From: Schlesneria paludicola DSM 18645
GTDB taxonomy: Bacteria > Planctomycetota > Planctomycetia > Planctomycetales > Planctomycetaceae
Direction: 5' to 3'
DNA: 50,947 nucleotides
NCBI GenBank assembly: GCA_945876035.1
Contig: CAMCMU010000035.1
Span: forward strand, 1 to 50,947
In this document: positions 39,796 to 48,560 of the stretch, piece after piece
Layout of the letters: each line of letters begins with the position of its first letter
Numbering within the stretch: the first letter of the stretch is position 1
The notes under the pieces: generated by a model
What the model saw: the letters and a program-made list of their open reading frames with translations, nothing else
Databases searched by the model: none
Told to the model about the DNA's origin: nothing
Translations under genes and position numbers: made by a program

Positions 39796-41022
39796 GAAGA
39801 TGTTCCAGACGAAGGAAGTTGAATAGAGAACGTCAGCCCCGCACAACCTACGGCAATATCGACCGAAGCGCGATCGTAGCGGAACCCTTGAAATCAGACA
39901 AGAGGCGGCGACAGTTCCGACGAGAAGCGTTCCACGCCCATTTCGGCCAATCTTCGGAAGACGATCAGGCACAGGGAATCATTCTGGTGTCTCGTGTTGA
40001 TGTCCATGCCGGGCGGAATTTATCGGGGGGCCGCGCTGCCGATTCGCGTTAAGCTTCAGACGCCCGACATTGCTCCGGACCGACCTCGAAACAAACTTGG
40101 CCAACAAACGGTGGGGGTGCGGACGTTGTGCTTCCCTAAAAAGGCCTGGCAATCCGCCCTTCATGACTCGTGGGCCACGGCTAACCCGAGCCTTCCGATG
40201 GAGGCGCAGGCGAAGGCCACAACTGGTCACGATCCCGCAGCAACAAACGGCGCAAGGCTCTCTCCAATTACCCGGCGAGTCTGTCCGAAAAAAAATGGAG
40301 GACGGCACAGCCAATGCGGATCACCGCAAAAGAGGCGTTGGTTCCTTGGTGACATTGTCCGAGGTGTCTCTGTTGGCAGCATGCTGCGACAGTCGATCGA
40401 CTCACATTTCCAGAGTCTGGCCACCAAAACAATGACTCTTGCTGCCCGTTGAACGCCTTCGACACCGGTCGATCGGCAGCGTGTCATTTTAAATGACACG
40501 TCCGTACCCTAGAATTTAAGACAACCGATACGAAGACGACACCCTGCAACGGGTGGAAACCTCGCGACAACGGAGATCGGTGGGGGCTTGGCTTGTTCGG
40601 CACGACAGGTAATCTGAAGCTAGGCATCGCCTGACATCGACGTGAGTGCTGAGGTTTAAGGAGTCGTCAGAATCGGACGCGGTGGCTATGGGAGATGTGG
40701 TATTCAGACGGTCTCGGCAATGCAACACCTCGTGGAACGTCGTCGTCACGCGAAACCGAGGGTACGTGTTATCTCGGCAATTCGGAGTGAACGTTTCAGA
40801 CGCGTCCTCGAGTGTGTTTTATGAAAGGGTACCATTGGAATCGACACCGTTTCGAAACTTGCCGTTGGCGCAGCAACAGACCCAATCCTCGACATCAAAC
40901 AGACGGCCTGCCGCGAGGTGACAGGCAGAGGCCGTCGAGCCAAGGAGCGGCGGCGTTTGTGACCGTCACACAGCAGTCGTTCTGACGAACCGGCTCGCTA
41001 CTCAACATTCCGGAGATCCTCG
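39796..41022. other. 1.2-kb divergent intergenic region
   Basis: This lies between the protease (-) and the first Tat paralogue (+). Open frames on both strands are short and unlike any family. It contains one strong palindrome at 40480-40500, listed separately. No tRNA or small-RNA fold was recognised by eye. Confidence 0.4.
40480..40500. promoter_or_regulatory. 21-bp near-perfect palindrome (10-bp arms)
   Basis: CGTGTCATTT, one T, then AAATGACACG: the arms are exact reverse complements. The AT-rich centre and 10-bp arms fit a dimeric regulator site. It lies 523 bp before the Tat paralogue gene and 685 bp from the protease start, so the controlled gene is not evident. Confidence 0.45.
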
Positions 41023-42273
41023 ATGCTGACACGACGCCGTTTTCTGGGCGCGATGAGTGCCCTGCCTTGGGGGATTTCTCGATCGACATCCGGTCAGGAA
41101 GTCGCTCCCAAGCGCATCGCAATCATTGCGACCGTCTGGAAATATCTGTCTCACGCTCAACATATGGGCGACCGATTCCTCATCGGCTATCCACGGCAGG
41201 GAACATGGCATAAGCCACGGATCCAAGTCGTCTCGTTGTATGTCGACCAAACTCCAGAGGGTGATCTCAGCCAATCTCGAGCATCCGAGCATGGCTTCAA
41301 GGTTTATCCCACGATCGCGGAGGCGTTGCGTTGTGGAGGCGACACGCTCGCGGTGGACGGAGTCGTCATCATTGGCGAGCATGGCGACTATCCACAGAAC
41401 GAGAAGGGGCAGACCCAGTATCCTCGCTTCGAATTTTTCCAACAGGTGATGGGGGTTTTTGAAACAGATCATCGTGCCGTCCCCGTGTTCAACGACAAGC
41501 ATCTCTCCTACAGCGGAGAAAAGGCCCGTATGATGGTTGAGGACTCAAAAAGATTGCAGTTTCCATTCTTGGCAGGTTCGTCGTTACCGGTCACATGGCG
41601 TTTGCCAGAGGTGGACATTCCTGATGGTGCAAAGATCCAGGAGGCCTTGATGGTCGGCGTCGGTGGCTCGGACGCCATGGACTATCACGCTCTCGAAGCC
41701 ATGCAATGCATGGTCGAACGGCGAAAGGGAGGCGAAACCGGCGTCAAATCCGTTCAGTTCCTACAAGGGGACGACGTCTGGCGAGCCGGCGAAGAAGGAC
41801 GATGGTCAAAGGACCTACTCGAAAACGCTCTATCCAGATCCGATTCCCTGCTGGGAGATTCTGATCTCGATTCGAGACCTCAGAACTTCGTTCAGAACGG
41901 CCAGCTGCCAACGTTGGTTTCGAACCCGGCAGCCTATCTGATTCAGCGCAGGGATGGTCTGTGCACGACACTCTTGATGTTGAACGGTGCCCTGCAGGAC
42001 TACAACTTCGCGGCAAAACTGCAGGGGGGCGAAGTCGTCTCGACACAATTCTTCCTGCCACCCACCCCGAATGTGACGTATTCGGGCAACCTTGTGTCTC
42101 AAATCGAAGAGATGATCCTCACCGGGCGTGCTCCCTATCCTGTGGAGCGAACGCAAATCGCCAGCGCGATACTCGATCGTTGTCTGGATTCGAAGCAGCA
42201 GGGCTCACAGTGTCTCGAGACCCCTGAACTCGCGATCTCGTACTCGGCCCCCCCTCGAGTCGCGATTCGGTGA
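41023..42273 (+). CDS. Tat-exported protein of unknown function, paralogue 1
   Basis: A 416-residue protein with a Tat signal (MLTRRRFLGAMSALPWG). GGAG seven bases ahead supports the ATG. It aligns along its whole length with the gene at 43973. Shared blocks are LAVDGVVIIGEHGDYPQNEK, KGQTQYPRFEFFQQVM, VPVFNDKHLSYSG, SKRLQFPFLAGSSLPVTWR, DYHALEAMQCMVERRKGGE and YPVERTQIASAI. The N-terminal half has a Rossmann-like order (strand-helix from KRIAIIATVWKYLSH; then TIAEALRCGGDTLAVDGVVI) recalling Gfo/Idh/MocA proteins, but no EKP motif is present. The His/Asp-rich block NDKHLS may be a metal or active site. Function is unknown. An aldo/keto reductase lies between the two paralogues, suggesting a link to sugar oxidation (inference). 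Confidence 0.7.
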   Translation: MLTRRRFLGAMSALPWGISRSTSGQEVAPKRIAIIATVWKYLSHAQHMGDRFLIGYPRQGTWHKPRIQVVSLYVDQTPEGDLSQSRASEHGFKVYPTIAEALRCGGDTLAVDGVVIIGEHGDYPQNEKGQTQYPRFEFFQQVMGVFETDHRAVPVFNDKHLSYSGEKARMMVEDSKRLQFPFLAGSSLPVTWRLPEVDIPDGAKIQEALMVGVGGSDAMDYHALEAMQCMVERRKGGETGVKSVQFLQGDDVWRAGEEGRWSKDLLENALSRSDSLLGDSDLDSRPQNFVQNGQLPTLVSNPAAYLIQRRDGLCTTLLMLNGALQDYNFAAKLQGGEVVSTQFFLPPTPNVTYSGNLVSQIEEMILTGRAPYPVERTQIASAILDRCLDSKQQGSQCLETPELAISYSAPPRVAIR

Positions 42274-42671
42274 GCGAACGATCGAGTGCCGCAGCGATCC
42301 CGGAAACACTCAACGCAGATTTTGAGTCGCCCATCCGATTCAAAATCGTTGGCGGGCGAAGCCCTTCGACCGACCACTCGTCGACCTGCGAGTCTGGTTT
42401 CTCGACGACGACATCGACGGCACGAACGCCGTTGGTCGTGACGAACTGATTGGGCGCAGACAGATACGCCTCAATCGCTGGCAAGCCAACGGAAGCAACA
42501 CCAAACCCGGAAATCAGCGGGAGGCGATGCGCTCGACAAACTCCTGGACCGATTCGAGAGAAACTCCGAAGATTTTGTGAGGCCCTCGCAGCGGTTCCCT
42601 GAGGCCCTTTTGTCGTGCCTTCCAGATCGAGGATGCGTAGAAACCGTCGAAATCCCCAGCGTCAGACTTGC
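42274..42671. other. About 400-bp gap with a possible small minus-strand ORF
   Basis: Between 42514 and about 42686 the minus strand has a stretch that reads protein-like (SDAGDFDGFYASSIWKARQ, then GPHKIFGVSLESVQEFVERI) and ends at a TGA (RC at 42514-42516). No ATG, GTG or TTG starts it in frame, so it may be a relic of a downstream gene. Otherwise no gene is seen. Confidence 0.35.
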
Positions 42672-43613
42672 TCAGGCCTGTGAATCATTATTTTCAGGCC
42701 TGCCCTCCCTGTAACGCCAGTTGTGGATCGGCTTGAGGATTGTTTGTACTTCGGCCAAGAGCTGTTGGTCGAGCGGCTCGCCCGCCCACTTCGCCCATTC
42801 GCCGACTCGTTCGGGGCGGGCGGAGCCAGTCACGCAGGTGGTCATCTCCGGATGGGCAAGGGAGAATTGCAGGGCCAGCTTGGCGATATCGCTGCCGCGC
42901 GCGGCACAGTGATCGGCCGCCGCTTTGGCAAGGCGTCGGACCTCCACAGTGGCCTTGTGCCAGCTGGGGAGCGGGTCGTTGGTCAGCAACCGCGCCGAAA
43001 AGGGGGCCGCATTCATGATCCCCACGTGTTTCGACTTCAGGTAGGGAACGAGATCACCGTACATCGTGTTCTGAAGCGTATAGTGATTGTAAGATAGAAC
43101 CACATCAAGACTGGTCTGATCGAGGATCAACTTGAATATTTTCAGGGGATAGCCCGAGACGCCGACGAACCGAACTTTGCCCTGCTGCTGCACTTTCCTT
43201 AACGCAGGAAGCGTTTCATTGAGAATCTGCTGCCTTTCGACAAACTCGATGTCGTGGCACAGGCAGATATCGAGGTACTCAACTCCGAGGCGATGCAGGC
43301 TGACATCGACACTCTCGACGACGCGTCGGGCCGAGAAATCGAAGTGTGTTTTGTCGTAGCGGCCCAGTTTCGTTCCGAGAATGTATGTGTCGCGTGCGAT
43401 ACCTCGTAACGCGACACCGAGCAACACTTCCGACATTCCGCGGCCGTAGAACGGCGACGTATCGATGAAATTTAAGCCGACATCCAGTGCGGCCCGCACG
43501 GCCGACATCGCCTCCACAATCTCAACGGATCGGAACTCGGCTCCGAGCGACGAGGCACCAAAACTGAGGGCGGAGAGCTGAAGGCCGGTCTGTCCCAGCG
43601 GGCGGTATTCCAT
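42672..43613 (-). CDS. Aldo/keto reductase, L-galactose dehydrogenase-like
   Basis: A 313-residue NAD(P)-dependent oxidoreductase with a TIM barrel. The ATG at 43613 (MEYRPLGQTGLQLSALSFGA) is the family start; the open frame extends 31 codons upstream without match. The tetrad is visible: Asp and Tyr in FIDTSPFYGRGMSEVLLG (about 51-68), Lys in YILGTKLGRYD, His in DICLCHDIEFVERQQ. Sequence words such as FDFSARRVVESVDVSLHRLG and CHDIEF are typical of L-galactose dehydrogenase and L-fucose dehydrogenase-like enzymes, which oxidise a sugar at C1. It is transcribed against the two flanking Tat paralogues. Its role as partner of those proteins is inference from position only. Confidence 0.85.
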   Translation of the reverse strand: MEYRPLGQTGLQLSALSFGASSLGAEFRSVEIVEAMSAVRAALDVGLNFIDTSPFYGRGMSEVLLGVALRGIARDTYILGTKLGRYDKTHFDFSARRVVESVDVSLHRLGVEYLDICLCHDIEFVERQQILNETLPALRKVQQQGKVRFVGVSGYPLKIFKLILDQTSLDVVLSYNHYTLQNTMYGDLVPYLKSKHVGIMNAAPFSARLLTNDPLPSWHKATVEVRRLAKAAADHCAARGSDIAKLALQFSLAHPEMTTCVTGSARPERVGEWAKWAGEPLDQQLLAEVQTILKPIHNWRYREGRPENNDSQA

Positions 43614-43972
43614 GGAAGCAGCCATTCGCGGATTGGAATCAAAGACACATAGGCGTTTTAACGGTGACACGCAGCGTGGCTCCACGTTAGCTCTCTCGCC
43701 CTGCAAGTGGTAGCGAGGGGATTCCGTTGATGTCTGGTCATCGTTGCATTACACCCTATCGAGGCCACGCAGCCATCAGCCATCAGCACCGCACAAGACC
43801 GCGGACAACCGAGGCACAACACGCCGAGGACCTCGCGGCCACACCAAGGAAAGATCAAGCGTCCCACGGGTTCCTAGACCCCATAGCCGATCTCTGTCAC
43901 GCAGAGGCGTCGACAGAGATCCTGACGGACTCTTTTTTCACCGCTGACCACTTGAGAGCCAGGAGTTTTCGC
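43614..43972. other. Divergent promoter region, about 360 bp
   Basis: This separates the aldo/keto reductase (-) from Tat paralogue 2 (+). The + frame is open through it (from 43727), but the translation is not protein-like and the Tat motif starts only at 43973. No clear -35/-10 pair stands out. Confidence 0.35.
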
Positions 43973-45250
43973 ATGCTACGACGACGGAATTTTTTAGCTT
44001 CCACCGCGGGACTTATCGCATCCACCGTACTCCCGAATTTTATCAACGCCGCACCCGCGTTACCCGAAGTCAAAAAGAAAATTGCGTTCCTCGGCACGGT
44101 GGCCTTCCAGCACTCCCATTCCCAACACTTTCTCGACCGACTGACAGTCGGTTACACTTGGCGTGGAGCCTGGCAGAGTCCCCGGCTCGATGTGGCATCT
44201 GTCTATCTCGATCAGTTCCCCGAAAACGATCTGGGACGGCAGCGGATTGAAAAGTACAGGCTCAGACAATTCGGCAGCATTCGGGAAGCATTGACGTTGG
44301 GGGGTGAATCCCTCGCCGTCGATGGTGTTGTGATCATCGCCGAGCATGGCGATTACGAACACAACAACAAGGGCCAAAAGCTGTATCCGCGTTACAAGTG
44401 GTTCAAGGAAGTGGTCAAGGTTTTTGAGGAGAGTGGGCGATCCGTCCCGGTTTTTAACGACAAGCACCTCTCCACCGACTGGCACGAATGCGTCGAAATG
44501 GTCAACGACTGCAAACGACTGCAGTTTCCAGTCCTCGCCGGTTCGTCACTGCCGGTCACTCTGCGCCATCCCGCAATCGACCTACCTCATGACTGTGATC
44601 TGAGGGAAAGTGTGTGTGTCGCCTATGGCGGAATCGACAGCTATGACTTTCATGCCTACGAGACGGCTCAGTGCATGTCTGAACGCCGCCGCGGAGGCGA
44701 GGTCGGAATCAGCAGCGTCCACGGATTGCAGGGCGAACTGTTGTGGCGAGAATTGGAATCCCCTGATCGAAGTCGCACGCGAGAGTTGTTTCTTGCTGCA
44801 CTCTGCCGTAGCCACAACCTTCCCGTCGAAGGCGGGTTTCCGACGGCAAAGATCAGCTACGAGTGGGCGAAAGCGACGCTGCCGGAGACCACCGGCTTCT
44901 TTGTTCAGCATCGCGACGGATTCCGTACCACCGTCTTCCTCAGCGGGATTCGCGACTTCAATTATGCCGGATTGATCGGCTCAACCGGTGAGATCGTCAC
45001 CTGCCAGATGTATCTGCCAATGCCGGGTCATGGGTCAACAACAGCCGACTTCTTCAATCCGCTAGCACGGCACATCGAGGAACTTGTTCTAACGAGAAAA
45101 GCTCCCTACGCCTTGGAGAGAACTCTGCTGACCTCCGGAATGGTCATCGGGGGTGTAGAATCCTTGCATGCCGGCCAAACACGATTCGAAACACCCGAGA
45201 TGGCTGTCGCCTATCATTCTCAAAAAGAATCAACGTTCTGGCGTGATTGA
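43973..45250 (+). CDS. Tat-exported protein of unknown function, paralogue 2
   Basis: A 425-residue protein with Tat signal MLRRRNFLASTAGLIASTVL; AGGAG eight bases before ATG 43973 fixes the start. Paralogue of 41023-42273. Shared blocks: LAVDGVVIIAEHGDYEHNNK, KGQKLYPRYKWFKEVV, VPVFNDKHLSTDW, CKRLQFPVLAGSSLPVTLR, DFHAYETAQCMSERRRGGE, QHRDGFRTTVFLSG, APYALERTLL. Differences cluster in the N-terminal strand region and between 280 and 320. The conserved HGDY, NDKHLS and ERR-x-GGE motifs are candidates for an active site. The family has no name known to me. Both paralogues keep intact signals and motifs, so both are probably in use, perhaps on related substrates in the periplasm. Confidence 0.7.
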   Translation: MLRRRNFLASTAGLIASTVLPNFINAAPALPEVKKKIAFLGTVAFQHSHSQHFLDRLTVGYTWRGAWQSPRLDVASVYLDQFPENDLGRQRIEKYRLRQFGSIREALTLGGESLAVDGVVIIAEHGDYEHNNKGQKLYPRYKWFKEVVKVFEESGRSVPVFNDKHLSTDWHECVEMVNDCKRLQFPVLAGSSLPVTLRHPAIDLPHDCDLRESVCVAYGGIDSYDFHAYETAQCMSERRRGGEVGISSVHGLQGELLWRELESPDRSRTRELFLAALCRSHNLPVEGGFPTAKISYEWAKATLPETTGFFVQHRDGFRTTVFLSGIRDFNYAGLIGSTGEIVTCQMYLPMPGHGSTTADFFNPLARHIEELVLTRKAPYALERTLLTSGMVIGGVESLHAGQTRFETPEMAVAYHSQKESTFWRD

Positions 45251-45538
45251 ATTGTTTCACCGCGTGTGTCTGACTCGCTCCCTTCACAATCCGAATCCAC
45301 CGCTGAAATCGGCGGTCTCGGGCCGAAGACTCACGACCGACCGTTGGTACGGCATTCCCTATAAAAACGCGAGCATGCCTCCGGCTGGGGAATGTCTATG
45401 AAACCGTGGAGTGCGGGCCGGTCGCGAGTACCTCGTGAGGGATCGCATGTCATTCGCCTTTGCGTCAGTGGAAAGCTCTCTGTAACATAAACCCCGTTCG
45501 TTGATTGCTCGAAATTGAATGCCCGCGGAAAATTCTTG

Positions 45539-46507
45539 ATGGCGCTGCAAGGATGCACTCTTGAAGCCGATTTGGTCTCACTGCGTGAGACGATCCATAC
45601 GCAGCTGGAGAACTACGTTTCGGCCGCTTCCAACCCTGGCCTCGGGGATTGTCCCGAGACGTTGCGTGAATCCGTCGCCTACAGCTTGCTTGCGGGGGGA
45701 AAGCGTTTGCGGCCGGTTTTGGTTCTTTTGGCCTGTGAGGCTTGCGGGGGGGACGTTGACGCCGCGTTACCTGCGGCCTGTGCAATCGAAATGGTTCATA
45801 CCTATTCCTTGATTCATGACGATCTTCCGGCCATGGATAATGATGACTATCGACGCGGGCGACTCACGAATCACAAAGTGTTTGGCGAAGGGTTGGCAAT
45901 CTTGGCTGGTGATGCGTTGCTGACACTGGCCTTTGAAATCATTGCCAAGGAAATTCAGCCCGGATCGGTTGCGGCGGCATGTTGTGCCGATCTGGCCTCG
46001 GCTGCGGGTTGGTGCGGAATGGTGGCTGGCCAAGTTGCGGATATTGAGGCAGAGAATCGGGAGGGGACGTTGAGTGGCGAGCATGTGTTGCAGGAGGTCA
46101 GCGACGATAATCTGATTCGTTCTGCTGCTCTGGCCCAACTGGAATCGATCCACCGGCGTAAGACGGGCCGGCTCTTAAGTTCGGCGGTGACTCTGGGGGC
46201 GCGAATTGCCCAGGTGAGTCAGGAATCGCTGCATCGATTGGAGCAGTTTGGAAATCGTATTGGTTTGGCGTTTCAGATCGCCGACGATTTGCTGGACGTC
46301 ACCGGCGACGCCAAAAAACTTGGCAAGGGGGTGCGCAAGGACGCCTCACTCGGTAAGATGACCTATCCGAAACTGTTGGGGATCAACGAAAGTCGACAGA
46401 GGGCTGAAGCGTTGATCGCCGAAGGGTGCCAATTCTTGACACCCTTCGGTGATCGAGCAGGCAAACTCATAGCACTCGCTCAGTTCGTAACGCAGAGAGA
46501 CCATTAA
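45539..46507 (+). CDS. ispA: Polyprenyl (farnesyl/geranylgeranyl) diphosphate synthase
   Basis: A 322-residue trans-isoprenyl diphosphate synthase, joining IPP to allylic diphosphates. Motifs are LLAGGKRLRPVLVLLACEA (about 49-67), the first Asp-rich motif IHDDLPAMDNDDYRRG (about 93-108; DDxxxxD form), GDALLTLAFE, MVAGQVADIEAE, KTGRLLSSAVTLGA and the second motif IADDLLDVTGDAKKLGK. The two-residue insert in the first Asp-rich motif is usual in bacterial FPP synthases (IspA type). The ATG at 45539 is chosen; a TTG at 45515 is in frame but less likely. It lies 139 bp upstream of dxs on the same strand, the common ispA-dxs arrangement, so the pair makes isoprenoid precursors. Confidence 0.92.
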   Translation: MALQGCTLEADLVSLRETIHTQLENYVSAASNPGLGDCPETLRESVAYSLLAGGKRLRPVLVLLACEACGGDVDAALPAACAIEMVHTYSLIHDDLPAMDNDDYRRGRLTNHKVFGEGLAILAGDALLTLAFEIIAKEIQPGSVAAACCADLASAAGWCGMVAGQVADIEAENREGTLSGEHVLQEVSDDNLIRSAALAQLESIHRRKTGRLLSSAVTLGARIAQVSQESLHRLEQFGNRIGLAFQIADDLLDVTGDAKKLGKGVRKDASLGKMTYPKLLGINESRQRAEALIAEGCQFLTPFGDRAGKLIALAQFVTQRDH

Positions 46508-46646
46508 TGAACCGTCGGCAAGTTGTCCATGTTTTGATTTTCGTCCTGTTTGCGACAGCGCATTGACTCCTGCTTTTCTTTCACCGAGTGCGAGTCTGAT
46601 CACCGAAGGGAAGCGAGAATGATTCCTCGCACCGTAAGGAATGACG

Positions 46647-48560
46647 ATGAATTTTGAGTATCTTCCGCAGATTAAGTCGCCTCGAGATTTGCGCGGGTTC
46701 ACGGATCCACAATTGATCCAGGTGGCCGAAGAAATTCGCGAAGCCTTGTGCAATCTTGTCCAAGAGCGTTCCGCTCATTTCGCAAGCAACCTCGGCGTCG
46801 TCGAGTTATGTCTTGCGTTGCACCTTGTTTACGATTTTTCAAAAGATCGATTGATTTGGGATACCGGTCACCAAATTTATCCGCACAAACTGATCACGGG
46901 GCGGTTTGATCAGTTTCGCTCAATTCGGACAAAGGGGGGCCTGATGGGGTTTCCCAATCCGAAGGAGAGTGAGTACGACCTGTTCATGACGGGTCATGCG
47001 GGAGCCAGTATTTCCACAGTGCTTGGCCTGAAGGCTGGTGACGACTTGATGGGCCAAGGCAATCGCAAATCAGTGGCCGTCATTGGTGACGGAGCATTGC
47101 CATCCGGCGTCGTCTTTGAAGCAATGAACAACGCGGCCGAACTTAAGAAGGATCTGCTCGTCATCTTGAATGACAACAAGATGGGGATTTGCCCGCGTGT
47201 CGGAGGCTTGGCCAAATATTTGGACAAGGCCCGTGTGGCTCCATTCTATAATGGGCTAAAACGCGATGTGAACTGGCTGCTGAATAAACTTCCAGTCCTC
47301 GGTCAACCGTCGCGTCACGCCATTTCCCAATTCAAAGAGGCGGTGAAGGGGTTCCTGCATGGAGGAATGCTTTTTGAAGAATTGGGATTCCGATACATCG
47401 GACCGTTCGACGGCCACGATCTCTTGGGCTTGCGGCATGCGTTGGAAATGGTCAAAGATGTCCGTGGACCGGTGTTGATGCACGTCTTTACCCAAAAGGG
47501 ACAGGGCTTCGAACCCGCCTGCGAAGATCCGGTGATGTTCCATGCGCCGCCGCCTTTCGAACGCTGTTCGCGTCACGAAGTTCGTTCCGTCAAAACGTCG
47601 TCGTCGAAGGCCTATACGAATACGATGAGTGACGCGATTTTCGATGTTCTGCGTCGTGACCCGCGGGCTTGTGTCTTGACTGCGGCCATGTGTGAAGGAA
47701 ACAAACTCGGGCGGATTCGGAACGACTTTCCTGAACGTTTTTTTGATACGGGAATTTGCGAATCACACTCGGTTGCCTTCGCAGCGGGAATGGCGAAATC
47801 AGGGATGCGGCCGATCGTGAACATCTACAGCACGTTTTTGCAAAGAAGCTTTGACCACATCTTTCAAGAGGTCGCGCTCCAAAACCTGCCGGTGACATTT
47901 TGCCTAGACCGAAGCGGCCTCGCGGGCCCCGATGGCCCGACTCACCATGGTGTCTTCGATACGTCCTACATGCGTGTCTTCCCGAACATGACCGTGATGG
48001 CCCCCGGCGACGAAATGGATGTCGCTCCGATGCTGGACTTTGCTCTGTCTCATTCCGGTCCTGTTTCCATTCGCTACCCCAAGGCCAACGTTGAAAATAT
48101 TGATCGCCCCGAGACTCCCATCGCATGGGGCAAGGCCGAAGTGTTGCAGTGGGGTCTGGACGGGATGTTCGTCGCATTTGGTGCACTCCTTCCGGCCTGC
48201 GTCCGTGCGGCAGAACGTTTGCGAGAACAGGGGCTTGATATCGGAGTGATGAATGCTAGATTCGCCAAACCGATCGACTCAGAGACGATCTTTCGTGCCC
48301 TCAGTGAATCCGGATTCGTGATCACCGTTGAAGAAAACACGCTGTGTGGCGGCTTCGGTTCCGCTGTCATGGAATCTGCCAGCGCTGCAAGTATCAGCAC
48401 CGACAATCTGTTGTGCTTGGGAATACCAGACCGGTTTATTGAACATGGCGAACGGGAGGAGCTGCTTGCCGATCTTGGGCTGGATGTTGACGGCCTGATT
48501 GCCTCGGCGCAGAGCATGTTCCAGAAAAAAAAATTAACACTGCCGAGTGGAGTAGACTGA
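46647..48560 (+). CDS. dxs: 1-deoxy-D-xylulose-5-phosphate synthase
   Basis: A 637-residue thiamine-diphosphate enzyme that condenses pyruvate and glyceraldehyde 3-phosphate, the first step of the MEP isoprenoid route. The ATG at 46647 (MNFEYLPQIKSPRDLRG) has AGGA six bases ahead, better placed than the ATG two codons upstream. Seen are WDTGHQIYPHKLITGR, TGHAGASISTVLGL, the TPP motif GDGALPSGVVFEAMNNAA with NDNKMGI, FRYIGPFDGHD, the transketolase pyrimidine-domain block DRSGLAGPDGPTHHGVFDTS and the C-terminal EENTLCGGFGSAVME. All catalytic motifs are complete and the length is typical (620-640). A hairpin lies just past the stop. Confidence 0.95.
   Translation: MNFEYLPQIKSPRDLRGFTDPQLIQVAEEIREALCNLVQERSAHFASNLGVVELCLALHLVYDFSKDRLIWDTGHQIYPHKLITGRFDQFRSIRTKGGLMGFPNPKESEYDLFMTGHAGASISTVLGLKAGDDLMGQGNRKSVAVIGDGALPSGVVFEAMNNAAELKKDLLVILNDNKMGICPRVGGLAKYLDKARVAPFYNGLKRDVNWLLNKLPVLGQPSRHAISQFKEAVKGFLHGGMLFEELGFRYIGPFDGHDLLGLRHALEMVKDVRGPVLMHVFTQKGQGFEPACEDPVMFHAPPPFERCSRHEVRSVKTSSSKAYTNTMSDAIFDVLRRDPRACVLTAAMCEGNKLGRIRNDFPERFFDTGICESHSVAFAAGMAKSGMRPIVNIYSTFLQRSFDHIFQEVALQNLPVTFCLDRSGLAGPDGPTHHGVFDTSYMRVFPNMTVMAPGDEMDVAPMLDFALSHSGPVSIRYPKANVENIDRPETPIAWGKAEVLQWGLDGMFVAFGALLPACVRAAERLREQGLDIGVMNARFAKPIDSETIFRALSESGFVITVEENTLCGGFGSAVMESASAASISTDNLLCLGIPDRFIEHGEREELLADLGLDVDGLIASAQSMFQKKKLTLPSGVD

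Follow-up and report, generated by a model that had tools for sequence, protein, structure and literature searches.

A pair of paralogous genes with putative Tat-type signals

We describe a pair of paralogous genes, gene 1 and gene 2, in a 50,947-nucleotide stretch of the Schlesneria paludicola DSM 18645 assembly GCA_945876035.1 (contig CAMCMU010000035.1, positions 1 to 50,947; the whole stretch is called the window below), together with the protein family to which they belong: judging from profiles and predicted models, a diverged branch of the Gfo/Idh/MocA fold, in which a Rossmann domain comes first and an alpha/beta substrate domain second. Gene 1 (P0001; 41023 to 42273, forward strand) encodes an intact protein of 416 residues, and gene 2 (P0002; 43973 to 45250, forward strand) an intact protein of 425 residues, each with a putative signal of the twin-arginine translocation (Tat) type ahead of the predicted Gfo/Idh/MocA-fold domain (MLTRRRFLGAM... 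and MLRRRNFL..., respectively). Signal peptides were judged by eye, without a signal predictor: the RRxF motif is present in both sequences, and the TAT_signal model (Pfam: PF10518) matches gene 2 at E 0.13 and does not match gene 1. We take the ATG at 43973 (MLRRRNFLAST...) as the start of gene 2, in preference to the TTG further upstream (43727) with which the mechanical 507-residue open reading frame (ORF) opens. Between the two genes, on the reverse strand, lies an aldo/keto reductase of the L-galactose dehydrogenase type (P0003; 42672 to 43706).

The original prediction for this DNA, made from its letters without database searches, had described two intact, exported-looking paralogues with shared blocks, and the comparison bears this out. 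The two proteins are 41% identical (174 of 422 positions, E 1e-109), a similarity that on sequence grounds is far beyond chance, and the blocks VDGVVII-x-EHGDY, VPVFNDKHLS, RLQFP-x-LAGSSLPVT, and ERR-x-GGE all occur in both.

A family without a name in the searched libraries

At a threshold of E 1, neither Pfam nor NCBIfam gives a match for gene 1, and TAT_signal is the sole match of gene 2. We gathered 76 family loci (60 regions, sets of 8 and 7, and the window), picked by hand from search matches and not at random; a simple gene caller finds members in 71 of these, and loci L056, L059, L061, L127, and L160 are absent from the counts despite holding matches. We do not rely on the long frames at L015 and L061. 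From these hand-picked loci come the 81 members to which the member counts below refer, three degenerate partners having been excluded. Among them, the best Pfam match is at E 0.0096 (DUF2849, in 6 of 81) and the best NCBIfam match at E 0.031 (Pfam cut-offs were printed for member 1 only); PF01408, the Gfo/Idh/MocA model, is touched by a single member, at E 0.11, and matches neither gene 1 nor gene 2. The claim that the pair fits no family therefore stands for curated models. Among the titles and abstract openings listed in literature searches, we found none that describes the family, which is no claim of its absence from print.

The source genome holds nine family copies, gene 1 and gene 2 included (ten match rows, two of which are pieces of one frame, C13). 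At least one member is present in 34 of the 392 genomes of a phylum sample (source genome included), in 20 of 28 genomes listed as the same taxonomic family, and in 30 of 40 near relatives; 3 of the 7 loci from one homologue search are records titled Verrucomicrobia. The family is strongly conserved, with as many as nine copies in one genome, and goes unrecognized by Pfam and NCBIfam; its genes are probably labeled hypothetical for that reason. We also observed a 31% identical relative (L147), annotated as a conserved hypothetical protein, on plasmid pHiyo8-1 of Arthrobacter sp. Hiyo8, which is typed as conjugative; it was the only match in a search of a plasmid collection.

Models and profiles point to the Gfo/Idh/MocA fold

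AlphaFold models, each built from nine sequences, have pTM values of 0.81 (gene 2) and 0.82 (gene 1) and pLDDT values of 81.6 and 80.7, respectively, and both have the two-domain fold of a Rossmann domain and an alpha/beta substrate domain. With E limited to 0.001, Foldseek finds 279 and 305 matches for the two models in the Protein Data Bank (PDB), the best E values being 1.7e-13 for gene 2 and 9.7e-13 for gene 1, with TM values of ~0.5 to 0.6. The best 50 chains per model are inositol dehydrogenases, GenD2, KanD2, sulfoquinovosidases, glucose-fructose oxidoreductase and the like, or chains titled only "putative oxidoreductase," which we take to be Gfo/Idh/MocA proteins as well.

Profile comparisons point the same way. 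Searched against PDB, the family profile matches the Gfo/Idh/MocA oxidoreductase 6z3b at the helix of the EKP motif (E 0.0035; 0.0048 with a larger alignment). With signal peptides removed, hhalign against the 29 ordinary Gfo/Idh/MocA proteins of the source genome gives 90% in local and 97% in global mode, whereas 20 column shuffles give at most 0.5% and the reversed profile 0.2%, these controls covering only the local comparison with ordinary members. A further set of 13 sequences, which we call the GLDTSH group, bridges the two: in hhalign its probability of matching the family is 97.7%, with an alignment that runs nearly end to end (266 columns, or 275 with a looser setting), and it matches the ordinary Gfo/Idh/MocA members at 99.6%. 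One such protein (L053, 9287 to 10330), which has IGLDTSH following its first strand as well as FIDKP, SSSSLR, and YGVHGVE, is encoded next to a gene 2 relative. With a limit of E 1e-10, 38 of the 40 relatives have the group and the source genome does not. Its alignment pairs DKH of the family with DKP, AGSSLP with SSSSLR, and FHAYE with VHGVE, which places NDKH at the EKP site, AGSSLP on the strand that follows, and FHALE at the substrate-domain histidine. As an observation on the group itself, its proteins reach 679 to 733 residues in several relatives (L174 1486 to 3540, L170, L172, L178, and L179), and the one at L174 has apparent WD40 repeats ahead of the GLDTSH domain.

On the combined strength of models and profiles, we regard it as nearly certain that gene 1 and gene 2 share the fold and homology of Gfo/Idh/MocA proteins. 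The first half had been called Rossmann-like beforehand, which the AlphaFold models and the N-terminal profile match support; as to fold, the statement that the pair fits no family does not hold. The check that had been proposed, by structure prediction and profile comparison, thus finds the fold of a known superfamily, but in a divergent form that has neither the GxGxxG loop nor a Pfam match, which is why we do not file the family as a PF01408 member. By sequence and model, it is a conserved family without a name in the searched libraries, yet a branch of a known superfamily.

Conserved residues and an altered cofactor loop

Profile alignment places Asp163-Lys164-His165 of gene 2 (44459 to 44467, forward strand) in register with the EKP motif of Gfo/Idh/MocA proteins. 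D and K are found in 81/81 members and H in 78/81, and [ED]KP occurs somewhere in 25/29 of the ordinary proteins of the source genome. Read in this register, NDKHLS holds an altered version of EKP, which has become DKH; the earlier view of a protein lacking EKP is not supported, and HGDY and NDKHLS do resemble an active site, as had been suspected. Aligned through the GLDTSH group, His227 of gene 2 (44651 to 44653, forward strand) corresponds to the conserved histidine of the substrate domain; it is present in 81/81 members, with D or E at position 222 in 81/81 and E (78/81) or D (3/81) at position 230 beside it. Placement in Gfo/Idh/MocA gives in this way a candidate active site of Lys164, His227, and Asp/Glu222.

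The invariant residues (81/81) are E124, G126, D163, K164, G190, S191, R198, H227, R239, G316, and R383; H49 (the remaining member is cut) and H125 are each found in 80/81. The lowest identity to gene 2 among these conserved members is 31%, and conservation of this kind down to such identity suggests a working enzyme and not a decayed one. In place of the dinucleotide loop GxGxxG, the loop after the first beta strand of gene 2 reads GTVAFQHSH (residues 41 to 49; 44093 to 44119, forward strand): the pattern GxGxx[GA] is seen in 0/81 members, one of which is cut before the loop, versus 19/29 ordinary Gfo/Idh/MocA proteins of the source genome. Position 80, after the second beta strand, is D in 63/81 and E in 11/81; an acidic residue there is a usual contact to the cofactor ribose. 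The family also has an additional segment, EHGxYPxNxxGQ, to which nothing corresponds in the ordinary members as aligned. The placement in Gfo/Idh/MocA also raises the question of what, if anything, replaces the cofactor once the glycine loop is gone.

Export is not constant across the family. RRx[FLM] precedes the domain in 49/81 members, a lower bound since others carry RR followed by another residue, and several members begin at the Rossmann strand in the gene calls and look cytosolic from their sequences. The description of an exported family suits the exported-looking window pair, with its RRxF motifs, but not every family member.

Paralogue pairs, degenerate partners, and fusions

In a tree of the family (FastTree, midpoint-rooted, without support values, with groups taken from leaf order), gene 1 is among ten neighboring leaves. 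The other nine, unlike the window copy, sit one or two genes downstream of another family member, in same-orientation paralogue pairs with the gene 1-type copy downstream in all nine (L045, L064, L117, L122, L125, L057, L158, L159, and L163). Such recurrent tandem pairs hint at a heteromeric enzyme.

We also observed, at three loci, a shorter paralogue of 358 to 392 residues that either overlaps a gene 2-type gene or comes immediately after it (L054 9389 to 10465, L014 9272 to 10360, and L055 1274 to 2452). EHG and DKH are lost in all three, and in the full-length alignment the L055 copy keeps R198, H227, R239, D315, G316, and R383; by sequence, the shorter degenerate paralogue may be a non-catalytic partner subunit.

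Some members carry further domains. Those at L126, L128, and L129 have a C-terminal PF06439 domain (DUF1080, a 3-keto-disaccharide hydrolase domain) at E 2e-33 to 2e-43. The L062 member has an N-terminal extension that is propeller-like by weak Pfam matches below cut-off, with no PDB match in a sequence search, and at L060 (5205 to 8243, reverse strand) the family domain is C-terminal in a protein of 1012 residues, the first ~600 of which have no Pfam family match and no PDB match by sequence; that this part looks like a glycosidase is an impression only.

The reductase and other neighbors of the pair

The gene between gene 1 and gene 2 is, as had been recognized from its sequence, an aldo/keto reductase of L-galactose dehydrogenase type on the other strand. 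It matches PF00248 at E 2.1e-44. Within an E limit of 1e-20 it has nine PDB sequence matches, of which the five best are named L-galactose dehydrogenase, with 9w6y at E 1.2e-93 and 7ezi at 3.9e-89. Within its 344-residue ORF, translation likely begins at Met28 or Met32, and no signal peptide was seen on it by eye.

The original prediction made the reductase part of a unit with the paralogues, and as a conserved linked unit this is refuted. In a tblastn search (E up to 1e-5) of 67 family loci and the window, the window gave the only match, and the four genomes whose gene 2 orthologues are closest (70 to 76% identity) carry the reductase and gene 2 on separate contigs. The nearest reductase-family pairs are ~0.5 Mb apart on one contig (genome G394) and ~270 kb apart on a single contig (G373). 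As to the proposed co-occurrence across genomes, both genes are present somewhere in 27 of the 40 relatives, the reductase is alone in 6 and the family alone in 3, with neither in 4 (Fisher p 0.05; Fisher tests here treat related loci or genomes as independent). A loose association at the genome level remains, and we judge the reductase an incidental neighbor outside the system. Separately, a selenocysteine in the reductase was considered and rejected: a single in-frame stop had been flagged in each of ten orthologues (three more flags came from another search), and the alignments of those ten show none inside the gene. In the G395 copy (L143/L157) the stop falls at query position 23, before the likely start of translation, and in the other nine it is probably the gene's own end.

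Further out, gene 2 is followed by a polyprenyl synthetase (45515 to 46507) and a DXP synthase (46641 to 48560), and a tail-specific protease lies upstream of gene 1; none of the neighbors suggests a sugar operon. Two further features of the window were noted: a 152-residue, possibly spurious ORF without Pfam match (39994 to 40452, forward strand) between the tail-specific protease and gene 1, and a 354-residue protein with a 3-keto-disaccharide hydrolase domain (PF06439; 20026 to 21087, reverse strand) ~20 kb from the gene pair.

Proposed function and alternatives

The family probably works like one of the sugar enzymes of its superfamily. As an overall explanation we favor, at about even confidence, an active Gfo/Idh/MocA-fold enzyme that acts on sugars or glycosides with a bound cofactor, perhaps in 3-keto-sugar chemistry. 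Such an enzyme would be exported folded by the Tat route in the source genome and would have an interdomain cleft that takes up a sugar or glycoside, where Lys164, His227, and Asp/Glu222 could move a hydride or proton at a carbinol carbon, like their counterparts in relatives. In the most likely version, the cofactor would be tightly held and loaded ahead of Tat export, by analogy with glucose-fructose oxidoreductase, and the reaction would be C3 oxidation or other 3-keto-sugar chemistry alongside DUF1080-type hydrolases. The parts of this proposal differ in strength: action on a sugar or polyol is somewhat probable, redox chemistry with a bound nicotinamide cofactor is a serious possibility that falls a little short of even, and 3-keto-glycoside chemistry in particular, the most specific idea that the data allow, is tentative. 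The last of these comes from the DUF1080 fusion together with published roles of DUF1080 and LgdA: DUF1080 proteins are described as 3-keto-glycoside hydrolases (PMC9007349), and LgdA, which is assigned to Gfo/Idh/MocA (PMC10066097), is reported to 3-dehydrogenate levoglucosan (PMC7676230). Sugar enzymes of Gfo/Idh/MocA with Tat signals have likewise been described (PMC4628093).

Several observations weigh against this explanation, and alternatives take up some of them. The structural match is moderate (TM ~0.43 to 0.56 by query length, rmsd 6 to 11 Å over long gapped alignments, 9 to 14% identity), and the local hhalign match to ordinary members spans the N-terminal domain only (121 columns; 87% with the larger alignment). 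The DUF1080 fusion, in 3/81 members on three adjacent leaves, looks like one event; in the source genome 1/9 members is near a DUF1080 match (C1, ~1.8 kb), among 16 such matches, which is about chance level. DUF1080 is also not solely 3-keto-specific, because an endo-xanthanase/lichenase is described with the same architecture (PMC9007349). The glycine loop, moreover, is seen in no member, so that a nicotinamide cofactor may not bind. The family may have kept the fold and given up NAD(P) in favor of a non-redox lyase, epimerase, or hydrolase reaction at its conserved His/Asp/Glu cluster, possibly with a metal, as had been guessed for HGDY and NDKHLS, and the dense set of conserved polar residues (H49, E124, H125, D163, H165, and H227) and the extra EHGxYPxNxxGQ segment would suit this. 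However, the acidic residue at position 80 is mostly kept, the lysine of EKP and the substrate-domain histidine are retained, and imperfect loops can still bind NAD(P), 10/29 ordinary members failing the strict pattern too; we consider this alternative possible but rather unlikely. Less likely still is its boldest form, a large Gfo/Idh/MocA-fold family without nicotinamide that carries out a new reaction, probably non-redox or metal-assisted, mostly outside the cell membrane and often as paralogue pairs.

The neighbors of the gene 2 group could mean a nitrogen compound instead, since a creatininase-family gene (PF02633) is found within three genes of 5/14 gene 2-group members versus 1/67 others (Fisher p 4e-4, for a pattern that was spotted first, in loci that are hand-picked and related, some on cut contigs). 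These creatininases (L014, L012, L051, L052, L053, and L058, five of the six in the gene 2 group) are ~58 to 64% identical to one another, and the one at L052 matches PF02633 at 1.9e-60. At L014 the row reads creatininase, major facilitator superfamily (MFS) transporter, family gene, and degenerate copy, an amino-acid permease is near the L012 member, and two adjacent creatininases elsewhere in the source genome are 54 to 60% identical to the linked ones. The gene 2 group might then degrade a small nitrogenous compound with a creatininase-family amidohydrolase, and the sugar explanation would be inapplicable there. We find this doubtful: no creatininase is among the gene calls near the window pair, most of the family is without such a link, and creatininase-family proteins are functionally diverse. 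Far less credible, and very improbable in our estimate, is a periplasmic sugar unit made up of both paralogues and the reductase. It draws on their adjacency in the window, on the L-galactose dehydrogenase type of the reductase, and on the genomes that hold both genes, but linkage is absent elsewhere, the reductase is on the opposite strand with no signal peptide seen, and each gene occurs without the other.

Comparison with known systems

The reductase compares directly with L-galactose dehydrogenase of the aldo/keto reductases, which it matches in PDB (9w6y and 7ezi) at E below 1e-88; the solved L-galactose dehydrogenases are plant enzymes, and the reductase is bacterial. For gene 1 and gene 2, the closest known system is the Gfo/Idh/MocA superfamily (PF01408 with C-terminal PF02894, PF19051, or PF22725), with which the family shares the predicted full-length fold, the EKP lysine, the substrate-domain histidine, and the N-terminal profile match. 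It differs in lacking GxGxxG, in having DKH for EKP, in the extra EHGxYPxNxxGQ segment, and, as far as the models go, in an apparently shorter link between domains. The GLDTSH group has the closest profile that we found and shares DK(P/H), SSL, H..E, and SH after the first beta strand, but keeps the proline of DKP, is without the EHGxYP segment, and still touches PF01408 (9e-5; 23.6 bits versus a cut-off of 24).

Glucose-fructose oxidoreductase of Zymomonas and aldose-aldose oxidoreductase of Caulobacter, described as Tat-signal sugar enzymes (PMC4628093), have the same fold and are Foldseek matches (1h6d and 5a02), but bind nicotinamide, have known activities, and are ~10 to 13% identical to the family in structural alignments. 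The 3-keto-sugar pathways (LgdA; BT2157 and other DUF1080 hydrolases), as far as the sources describe them, resemble the family in their Gfo/Idh/MocA dehydrogenase and in the one family lineage fused to DUF1080, although that fusion is seen in those three members only. If its role were indeed in 3-keto-sugar chemistry, the family would add a mostly exported branch to the oxidative route of glycan breakdown in planctomycetes.

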